Shown here one piece after another: positions 11,822-15,195 of a stretch of DNA of 50,714 nucleotides; within the stretch, counting starts at the first letter, position 1, and each line of letters opens with the position of its first letter. The notes below the pieces were generated by a model. The model ran no database searches. It was not told the origin of the DNA and saw only the letters and a program-made list of their open reading frames with translations. The stretch comes from Bacteroidales bacterium (GTDB lineage: Bacteria; Bacteroidota; Bacteroidia; Bacteroidales; JAADJA01). The stretch lies in assembly GCA_020052415.1 (NCBI GenBank), contig JAGVPB010000060.1:1-50714 (forward strand), written 5' to 3'. A program made the position numbers and the translations under genes.

Positions 11822-13888
11822 TTACTTAAATTCTTTCGGAACCTGGCAATTTACATTATTAAAATTCTCAGGGAACAGTTCATTTTTATCATTATTATCC
11901 GTTTGTCCGTCAAGGTTAATATCTCCTGACAAATAACTTCCTGACCCTGCCTGGGGCGTCCAAACTGTGTTTTTATCCAGGCTATCAATTTGTCCGTCGG
12001 CATTCATGTCTCCGGTTGCCATTCCCCAAACGCCCGTATTCATGATGTCTTTACAACCTGCTGTTCCGCCATAGATCTGAGTTACATCAGTTGAAAAATC
12101 ATAGCTGTAAATTCCTCCGGATGCAGTAACCGGCTGGTTGCTCATGATACCGACATGATTCCGGTGCCAGATTACGAGATACAGGTCGTCCGTTACATTA
12201 ATATCGAACCTCAAAGGACTTACTCCGTCAGTCCCAACAACGTAACCATATCTATGCACGAAAGCAGCCTGTCGTGCGACAATCGTTTGTTCAGTGGCGG
12301 TAGAAGCATCTCCCTGTGTTTCCCGGCATTCTACAAGTATCCAATCTACGATGTTAGGATTGGGAATTGCAGGAACACTCTCAGTTCCATTATAATTCCA
12401 TGGTGGGAGATTAAAAGGTTGGGTCAGGGGAATAAGGCCTTTTTGGAACAGGCCGGCATTCATTTCAAATGTCCAGTCATCAAAAGGGCCTTCGAGAAAT
12501 ACGGTTGCATTAAGTGTAATGCCTGTAATATAGAATTCAGTTGTTTCGATGGTGCTGAAGTTTCCACCATGCTGAATGATATCACCGTCAATATCGGTTA
12601 GTTCATAATAACCATTTCCGGAAGCACAGCAAATCCCATCACCTCCTGAGTCGTTGATCACAAACCTGTAACAATTTGTCTCGTTGAAATTAATTACCTG
12701 TTGTATCAGCGTATTTGGCTGACCGGAGTAAGGCCCTCCCGATGCCACAACTGTTCCGGCAGAATTCTTAAACTGCCAGGTAGTCTGGTTCGGATTGTTA
12801 TCCGTCATGATTTCAAGATTGACCTTAATGTTGTAGGTGGAAGCCTCAATAAACGAACCTTCCGTTGTGTCATTTGATGGATTAAGGTCAGCCATGCCAT
12901 TGGTGCTGTACAAATATGCAACGAAGTCATTGACAGGCTCAACGGTGTAAGTCATTTGAGGCAGTGAAATATTCTGAACCTGGTTTGTGCTGAGACTACC
13001 GGACCAGTTGTAATTGGCCAGTATTCCATTATTAAGACTGTATTTGATTACCGCATTGGTAACATTGATGTTTGATAAATTCTTCAACTGGACAACAGGA
13101 TTAGCAAATCCTGAACAGGCTTCGATGGGCAGATTATTCACACCGAGAAGCGATGCGTCTGCTGCCATTCCCTGTAAGTCGTTGATAGGAAGCTTAACCG
13201 TCTGCAGTACTTCCTTGGTTGAATTGTTCTGGAGGAAGGCGACAATTTCGCAGTTTGCAAGGTTCCAGCTCGCCCCGACATTAAAATCGAGGGTTACCGT
13301 CTGAACCGGTCCTGATGTGAAATTCACACTGGTTCCGTTGGCATTCGGCGCCAACAGCCGGGTTACGTGGTTAAATACATCGCCACTGTAACTCAGGTTC
13401 GATTCGGTAATCGCAAACTGGAAAACAGGATTTGCGCCTGTATAAGTTCCGACCTTTTCAATGGTTGCAATTACATCATAATTCAAACCCGTATGAGTTC
13501 CGTTCAACTGGATGGTAAAATGCGATGAAACGACAATGCGCTGGTTGTACTTTGTTAAAAACTGACTGTACGTTCCGGAAGAACCGCCAAGTACATTTGT
13601 AATGCCGTCGAAATAGGAATTAGGGATACTGCTTATCCCATAATAACTAATTCTTGCCTGTGAATAGGAGTTTGTAAAACCGCTGTAGGAAGATGAAACA
13701 TGATGTTCAAGTACTGCCACATCATATCCGTTTGTTATCAAATCGTCAGCTGCCTGTGCTGCGTATGGACAGTAAGTTCACCAGGTAGCGGTACCGATTT
13801 CTATTAAAACATTTTCTCTAGGGACCACTTGAGAAAATGATATAAATGCAAATAAACACAATGACCAAAGGAGTAATTTTTTTTTCAT
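11822..13888 (-). CDS. Candidate selenoprotein: secreted Omp28/thioredoxin-like protein with in-frame UGA
   Basis: From the ATG at 13888 the frame gives a signal peptide (MKKKLLLWSLCLFAFISFSQ), then VVPRENVLIEIGTATW, a TGA at 13780-13778 (codon 37), then TYCPYAAQAADDL, and stays open to the TAA at 11824-11822: 688 residues if UGA is decoded. Omp28-related proteins carry WCxxC at this point, so the UGA replaces the first redox cysteine (U-T-Y-C), the usual signature of selenocysteine in thiol oxidoreductases. Without readthrough only 36 residues are made; a later ATG at 13741 would lose the signal peptide and redox site. Mid-regions are beta-rich, including NDSGGDGICCASGNGYYELTD. Two calcium-loop motifs (GDMNADGQIDSLDK, GDINLDGQTDNNDK; about 626-671) resemble a dockerin. 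No T9SS sorting tail is seen. The alternative is a nonsense mutation or sequencing error. Confidence 0.7.
13744..13763 (-). promoter_or_regulatory. Possible SECIS-like hairpin after the UGA
   Basis: In the mRNA, 14 bases after the UGA, CG-CAGC pairs with GCUG-A-CG (one bulged A) around the 7-base loop ACAGGCA, which holds a GG. Position and bulge recall bacterial SECIS elements such as that of E. coli fdhF. However, the stem is short and the loop lacks a G in its first two positions. This is a hand-drawn fold only. Confidence 0.25.
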
Positions 13889-14042: not shown

Positions 14043-14067
14043 CAACGTGTTCAAAAAATACGAAAAA

Positions 14068-15195
14068 ATGGACGTGAGAACATCAGATCCTTTTGACCGG
14101 CATAAACCTTTCAATCATTTACCGTTGCTACCACCGGAATTTGACTTAAACGATCCAGAAGTATTACTGAACTGGGGCTATGCCTCAAGAAACCTTGCAG
14201 AACTTCGAAGGAATATTCTAAGACTCCCAAATCCTAATATGCTTTTAAACACAATTTCACTTCAGGAAGCAAAAAGAAGTTCGGAAATTGAAAATATTTT
14301 TACAACCGATGATGAATTATACAGAGCTATTTCCGATTCGGTTAGAGAAGAAAATGCAAGCCCCGAAACAAAAGAAGTTTTAAGGTACCGTGAAGCGTTA
14401 TGGTCTGGTTATAGCAACATTATAGATAAAAGAGAAATAAGTCAGGAGTCCGTTATTAAAATTTATCAAAAAATAAAAAATACCAAACAGGGGATCAGAC
14501 CACCGCAATCACAGGTGGTTATCAGGAAAGGGCAAAGCGACCTGAATCCGGGAGAGATTGTTTACACACCGCCCAGGGGTCCGGAAGTTATTGAGGTGAA
14601 ATTGGCAAACTTGATTACGTATATTAACGACAATCAACATTATCCGGGTGATCCGTTGCTGAAAATGGCCATTTCCCATTATCAGTTCGAAGCTATTCAT
14701 CCTTTTTCTGACGGTAATGGCAGGGCAGGCAGAATTTTAAATATTCTTTACCTTGTAAATCAGGGATTACTTACCTATCCAGTTTTATATCTGAGCAAGT
14801 ATATCATTGAAAATAAAAACGAGTATTACTATTGCATTGGGGCCGTTACACAAAAAAAGCACTGGAAAAACTGGTTGATATTTATGATGAAAGCAGTGGA
14901 AAACACTGCAAAAAGTACCAATATTCTGATTGATTCCATTTATGACCAGATGTCTGCCACAATGGATTATGGGAAAAAAGAGCTGAAGTGGTACAATAAA
15001 GAGTTGAATGAAGCACTGTTTTATCAGCCATACATCAAACAGAAAACTCTCAGTGAAGTGATTGGACGCACCAGTCGGACAACTCTTACAAAATATATGG
15101 CCGAATTATGCCGGTTAGGAATAGTGACAGCAAAGCAGGAAGGTAAGGAAGTTTTTTATATCAATAATGATTTGGTGAGGATATTGGGAGGGTAA
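14068..15195 (+). CDS. Fic family AMP-transferase with C-terminal winged helix
   Basis: A probable protein AMPylator: Fic domains transfer AMP (sometimes other groups) to hydroxyl side chains. Numbered from this ATG (375 residues), the catalytic motif HPFSDGNGRAGR is at 211-222. An inhibitory-helix motif of the S-x-x-x-E-N type (SSEIEN) is at 71-76, on the N-terminal side, as in class II self-inhibited Fic proteins. The end (KTLSEVIGRTSRTTLTKYM and following) reads as a winged helix-turn-helix, so it may bind DNA. A GTG at 14047 would add seven residues but lies upstream of the expected transcript start. Repeats before the promoter hint at autoregulation. There is no separate antitoxin gene. 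It converges on dxs with a 2-base gap. Confidence 0.92.
   Translation: MDVRTSDPFDRHKPFNHLPLLPPEFDLNDPEVLLNWGYASRNLAELRRNILRLPNPNMLLNTISLQEAKRSSEIENIFTTDDELYRAISDSVREENASPETKEVLRYREALWSGYSNIIDKREISQESVIKIYQKIKNTKQGIRPPQSQVVIRKGQSDLNPGEIVYTPPRGPEVIEVKLANLITYINDNQHYPGDPLLKMAISHYQFEAIHPFSDGNGRAGRILNILYLVNQGLLTYPVLYLSKYIIENKNEYYYCIGAVTQKKHWKNWLIFMMKAVENTAKSTNILIDSIYDQMSATMDYGKKELKWYNKELNEALFYQPYIKQKTLSEVIGRTSRTTLTKYMAELCRLGIVTAKQEGKEVFYINNDLVRILGG

Follow-up and report, generated by a model that had tools for sequence, protein, structure and literature searches.

A Probable Secreted Selenoprotein of the Omp28/HBP35 Type in an Uncultured Bacteroidales Lineage

A gene of an uncultured Bacteroidales bacterium very probably encodes a secreted selenoprotein in which the UGA at codon 37 is decoded as selenocysteine (Sec) by the cell's own sel machinery, giving a UxxC oxidoreductase. 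A selenoprotein had been proposed in a preliminary description, based on the window alone (that is, the whole stretch of DNA analysed, 50,714 nucleotides; it forms contig C56 in a genome of 94 contigs and 4.67 Mb). This reading is now supported by a sel gene cluster in the same genome, by the alternation of TGA and Cys codons among relatives, and by co-occurrence with SelA. The conserved TGA, its alternation with Cys, the sel genes, the genome-level co-occurrence, and the predicted fold were all established by computation only.

The Gene and Its In-Frame TGA

Translation of the window gives a frame on the minus strand that runs from an ATG at 13888 to a TAA at 11824–11822 and that comprises 688 codons with one internal stop. 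This stop is a TGA at 13780–13778 (residue 37, context GTATW-TGA-TYCPYA), after which 651 codons are open. Retranslation of 11822–13888 bore out the original claim that the only internal stop occupies the first position of a U-x-x-C motif, which ends in C40. The features of the gene are as follows:

11822..13888, minus strand: probable selenoprotein gene, 688 codons, UGA at codon 37, TAA end; paralogues and relatives have the same TGA
13829..13888, minus strand: probable signal peptide, residues 1–20, recognized by eye; helix 2–18 in the predicted structure
13778..13780, minus strand: probable Sec-UGA codon, residue 37, forming U-x-x-C with C40; the column is TGA in 33 of 169 relatives and Cys in 134
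13744..13763, minus strand: SECIS-like hairpin, nt 15–34 after the UGA, with a 7-nt loop from 21 nt after the UGA; weak in the window gene
13529..13819, minus strand: thioredoxin-fold part, about residues 24–120, with U37, C40, and Pro89 (AlphaFold2; thioredoxin structures align to about 23–120)
13181..13528, minus strand: beta domain of the Omp28/HBP35 type, about residues 121–236 (Pfam, predicted structure, and structure comparison)
11825..13180, minus strand: C-terminal part, residues 237–688, with two EF-hand/dockerin-like repeats near the end, seen by eye; no match to a T9SS tail

UGA had been taken to be a normal stop in the window, so that no reassignment of the code was involved, and this holds: the 28 non-overlapping open reading frames of at least 200 amino acids end in TAA (16), TGA (7), or TAG (5). 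A reading of the UGA as some other amino acid, through suppression by Trp or Cys or through a changed code, is argued against by these seven TGA ends, by the presence of tRNA-Sec and selA, selB, and selD in the genome, and by the occurrence of TGA only at the redox-Cys position in the domains examined; nothing came up in its favour, and such a reading is highly improbable.

Alternatively, translation could end at the UGA, giving a leader of 36 residues, and begin again downstream to make a second protein that would have neither a signal peptide nor a complete active site. A 639-codon frame from a TTG at 13741 does exist in the list of open reading frames. However, Sec and Cys homologues can be aligned with one another in the residues ahead of position 37, the Cys homologues have one unbroken frame, and the restarted product would, on the predicted structure, be without strand 27–33 and both active-site residues, which makes this the least probable of the alternatives considered. 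Since ordinary calling of open reading frames splits such genes at the UGA, they are easily missed.

At its C-terminal end, the window protein has no match to TIGR04183 or PF18962, the profiles for T9SS type A tails, at E 0.1. Such tails are carried by all three paralogues (profile search; see below), and T9SS-like ends were seen by eye in most TGA genes of the family. By eye, the C-terminus of the window protein, with its EF-hand-like repeats, is similar to that of a protein encoded at C55:246204 (locus L016) rather than to the T9SS tails of the paralogues, which looks like a tail swap. Divergent from the gene, at 14047–15195 of the window (plus strand), lies a gene for a SoFic-like Fic protein (Fic_N, Fic, and SoFic-like C).

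Alternation of TGA and Cysteine

A search with the N-terminal 236 residues found three further genes in the same genome, 44–45% identical and each with one TGA, plus a fifth match (E 0.014) without a stop. All four TGAs fall on the same codon (TWUTYCP, TWUYYCP, TWUSFCP, and FWUGYCP; L012 is among these loci). Across the 17 genomes of the genus, a TGA is present in 20 of 51 matches (one of which also has a TAA), the other 31 being stop-free.

The preliminary description had called for an alignment of homologues that would reveal U and Cys in alternation, and the two do share one column: in 169 distinct domains, the position is TGA in 33, Cys in 134, Thr in one, and Gly in one. These 169 are the distinct domains that span the position among the loci examined, 9 truncated domains having been dropped; the genomes compared are largely MAGs. 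To these loci, one scan for relatives contributed 80 of 215, and it disfavours Sec forms because one of its two peptide patterns had Cys at the position. Each of the 33 TGA domains contains exactly one TGA and the other 136 contain none; a TAA or TAG is seen inside the domain of just two rows, one with TGA and one with Cys. Counted from a Met that lies 25–50 residues before it and was taken as the start, the Sec position is number 37 in 28 genes of the 33 and falls within 36–39 in the others.

A tree built with FastTree covered 146 of the 162 rows, with three of the 19 distant Cys rows among them; on it, the U and C labels require six changes, of which well-supported branches force at least two. 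The Thr copy (L046:2836-3510, on G005:C167), which lies beside a TGA copy, and the Gly copy (L115) are, to judge by sequence, perhaps inactive relatives.

A nonsense mutation, or an assembly or base-call error, in an ordinary Cys gene would also place a TGA here: the Cys homologues are the commoner form (134/169), a single base change suffices to yield TGA, and one relative, L038 in genome G010, has both a TGA and a TAA in its domain and looks decayed. L038, however, is the sole TGA row with a further stop in the domain, so that the search for gene decay among homologues turned up one case in 33. The remaining 32 are without one, the TGA recurs at the identical codon in 33 distinct genes (four of them in the same genome), and the TGA forms track SelA, as described below. 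A base-call error is unlikely because the TGA recurs in many genomes. The pseudogene or error explanation is thus nearly refuted, and we consider it very unlikely.

The Sec Machinery and Its Co-occurrence with the TGA Form

A genome that decodes UGA as Sec should contain selA, selB, selD, and tRNA-Sec, for which the preliminary description had proposed a search. All are present in one cluster, on one strand, on contig C79 (locus L011):

L011 12343-12251: tRNA-Sec, anticodon tca, on one strand with the whole cluster
L011 12216-10798: selA (SelA match E 7e-133)
L011 10801-8840: selB
L011 8826-8218, minus strand: TusA/DsrE-type gene, between selB and selD
L011 8108-7074: selD, Cys form by eye

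Within the genus, a full SelA (a match with E below 1e-120) is found in 13 of the 17 genomes; the figure is 13 rather than the 14 tallied because the match in genome G012 is only partial (E 7e-5), as are the second matches in G011, G013, and G014. SelA is present in 12 of the 13 genomes with a TGA gene vs. one (G001) of the four others (Fisher's P 0.02, kinship ignored). The exception, with a TGA gene and without a full SelA, is G012, which is 82% complete and in 820 contigs.

At the level of the order, the domain was found at E ≤ 1e-30 in 78 of 393 genomes, and SelA was sought in the 73 of these that lie outside the genus. It was present in 24 of them: in all nine genomes with a TGA form vs. 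15 of the 64 without one (Fisher's P 1.3e-5, kinship again ignored), where "without" means that none was found, since this first look at the order scored at most seven candidates per genome. The nine genomes contain at least 13 TGA matches. In G362, a genome from another family, tRNA-Sec, selA, and selB are followed immediately by a TGA gene of the window type with 769 codons (L246:4533-10597).

The Hairpin after the UGA

A check for a SECIS element, which had likewise been suggested for the window gene, gave a divided answer: a short hairpin is kept, and covaries, more in Sec than in Cys homologues, but in the window gene the hairpin is a weak one that does not fit the standard bSECIS model. 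This model, as given in part of a recent review, has a G in the first two loop bases, a loop 16–37 nt from the UGA, and an MFE of −7.5 or lower (PMC13188914). The window gene has no hairpin that meets the G rule, and its best other hairpin, a longer form of the one at nt 15–34, is at −7.1 kcal/mol. Among the relatives, the standard model is passed by 13 of 33 Sec vs. 60 of 134 Cys genes; with the G rule imposed, the two sets do not differ (P 0.63). When any loop is allowed, the hairpins of the Sec genes are the stronger (P 0.007). The same part of the review states that some selenoprotein genes fail the bSECIS model (PMC13188914), so the miss in the window gene counts only against a SECIS of the standard type. 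The MFE fold of 61 nt of the window includes the hairpin at nt 15–34, with a z of 0.59; 146 of 200 shuffles fold equally well.

Leaving family f75 aside, the Sec genes number 27, and among them one hairpin recurs, with a loop that begins after 20 nt; its four core pairs are formed in 22 of the 27 vs. 43 of 134 Cys genes. Both partners of the covarying pair are third bases of Ala codons, so the pair can vary without altering the protein. Among genes with Ala at both fixed positions (19 Sec and 96 Cys genes; kinship not fully corrected), this synonymous pair is Watson–Crick in 18 of 19 Sec genes (11 A-T and 7 T-A) vs. 40 of 96 Cys genes (P 2e-5), with about three changes of the Sec pair on the tree. 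None of 20,000 permutations reached the Sec value; 139 reached the Cys value, so there is some pairing bias in the Cys genes too.

These pair counts exclude the six TGA genes of family f75 (loci L237, L239, L240, L242, and L243), which come from three genomes and have a different, strong hairpin of −13.5 to −17.6 kcal/mol, with the loop GGUGUG in four of the six and the G rule met in five. To judge from these comparisons, the covarying hairpin lends the Sec reading moderate support, and it may be regarded as a candidate for a non-standard class of SECIS.

Predicted Fold and Activity

The description of the N-terminal part as an Omp28-like thioredoxin domain agrees with the Pfam profile Omp28 (PF11551), which matches residues 80–236 above its cut-off (E 2e-13; 51 bits vs. 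34.9), and with a thioredoxin fold that is predicted confidently. The AlphaFold2 model, based on 59 aligned sequences (pLDDT 94.4, pTM 0.89), has a thioredoxin part followed by a beta domain. In it, U37 lies just ahead of helix 40–52 with C40 at the helix start, and the invariant Pro89 precedes strand 90–93. The nearest solved structure is HBP35 (PDB 5y1a; Foldseek E 1.6e-12; VIA-align Z 23.4, rmsd 2.5 over 211 of the model's 236 residues), and HBP35 comes first by sequence as well (E 0.002). VIA-align places 2axo, a protein from Agrobacterium, next (Z 19.1), and after it the Omp28 domain 2r2c (Z 10.0, 112 residues). On the strength of this model, we infer that the window protein is a secreted selenylsulfide/thiol oxidoreductase.

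Sec insertion, a role for the hairpin, export, and redox activity are inferred as parts of the best explanation, which might run as follows. SelA and SelD of the cell's own cluster would make Sec-tRNA(Sec), with which SelB would read the UGA at codon 37 as selenocysteine, perhaps assisted by the short hairpin just 3′ of the UGA. The signal peptide would export the product out of the cytoplasm, where the U-x-x-C in its thioredoxin fold would carry out thiol/disulfide (selenylsulfide) oxidoreduction, as HBP35-type proteins do with C-x-x-C.

A Second, Putative CxxU Family beside tRNA-Sec

Directly upstream of tRNA-Sec lies a second apparent selenoprotein gene (L011:12437-14278, minus strand; C79:178439-180277 in the genome's own numbering). 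It has a single internal TGA, in GCYCVD-U-GLTPPG, and its own end is also a TGA. In the genus, it adjoins selA in all 13 genomes with SelA, with gaps of 435–819 bp; G012 has a fragment, and G002, G003, and G008 have no close match. Extra stops occur in five of 14 rows of the family; in four of them the TGA sits in a frame of some 600 codons that is open apart from it, and the fifth is the G012 fragment.

A search of the order's 393 genomes at E ≤ 1e-20 gave 17 matches, spread over 13 genomes. Every one of the 17 has a single TGA and no more, and no Cys form is among them; SelA is present in 13 of these 13 genomes. Outside the genus (nine genomes), a copy is on the selA contig in seven and within 2.2 kb in six. 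Across an alignment of 25 sequences, neither C357 nor Sec360 varies. In distant stop-free relatives, the nine loci that cover the Sec360 position have Tyr (seven) or His (two).

The protein carries a T9SS tail, and all of the remaining NCBIfam matches fall within that C-terminal part. Its predicted structure is of moderate quality (pLDDT 82.7, pTM 0.59), and the Foldseek matches to this model were set aside: they are beta-rich proteins, mostly glycoside hydrolases, with a TM of about 0.2 and an rmsd above 20.

Comparison with Known Selenoproteins and Thioredoxins

A 2006 survey detected the Sec-decoding trait nowhere in Bacteroidetes (PMC1794560). A 2026 review tabulates 119 prokaryotic selenoprotein families or subfamilies; the section of this table that was compared includes GOS_C, but PF11551 does not appear in it and none of its families is named as T9SS-exported (PMC13188914). 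The passages available from PMC12013277 contain neither Omp28 nor any word beginning with Bacteroid-. Literature searches surfaced only work on H. pylori strains when Omp28 was joined with selenocysteine, only dairy-cow work for selenocysteine, Bacteroidota, selenoproteins, and UGA, and only rabbit work for selenoprotein with type IX secretion. A groundwater MAG study cited by PMC13188914 may already contain such genes.

It seems rather probable that this uncultured Bacteroidales lineage has an exported, probably cell-surface selenoproteome. This would consist of up to four UxxC thioredoxins of the HBP35/Omp28 type per genome, most with T9SS-like tails, with Sec gained independently of GOS_C and a hairpin outside the standard bSECIS, together with the T9SS-tailed CxxU protein, which has only a Sec form here and is usually beside tRNA-Sec and selA. 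Several selenoproteins per Bacteroidales MAG look exported, which raises the question of what keeps the selenol reduced outside the cell.

With HBP35 of Porphyromonas gingivalis, the window protein shares the same two-domain fold, a thioredoxin part plus a beta domain, but it differs in having Sec and Cys where HBP35 has two active-site cysteines, and the two are 16% identical. The part of the study of HBP35 that bears on this describes a thioredoxin activity abolished by mutation of these two cysteines, hemin binding, and a cell-surface form (PMC2907840). For the Omp28 lipoprotein family (PF11551, NF033782, PDB 2r2c), the cut-off of PF11551 is passed, but the NF033782 score is 38.6 bits vs. 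a cut-off of 150. Selenocysteine thioredoxins and other selenoproteins in the excerpted review (PMC13188914) have the UxxC Trx fold in common with the window protein, which is distinguished by being large, multidomain, and predicted to be secreted.

The preliminary description knew of no selenoprotein of the Omp28 type, and on this it has to be corrected: an Omp28-related selenoprotein, NF045500, had already been catalogued. It corresponds to the hypothetical protein GOS_C, UxxC, in the table section cited above (PMC13188914), and the excerpted original report assigns GOS_C a Trx-like fold and counts 74 sequences with Sec and 312 with Cys (PMC2398784). The NF045500 model, with which the comparison was made rather than with a member sequence, is likewise Omp28-related, Trx-like, and UxxC, and aligns to residues 26–252 of the window protein. 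The difference is one of score: the cut-off of the model is 200 bits, whereas the window protein reaches 69.9 and the paralogues 61.8–80.4; the values are 55.1–87.1 for six Cys relatives and 42–80 for eight other Sec genes. These scores, below the cut-off and similar in Cys relatives, make the window family a relative of GOS_C rather than a member, and its Sec may, on sequence grounds, have arisen separately. A search of 296 Bacteroidota genomes with NF045500 gave no match at E 1e-20, and since control genomes were equally silent, this does not establish absence. An Omp28-related selenoprotein is, then, of a known kind, and what is new here is the variant.
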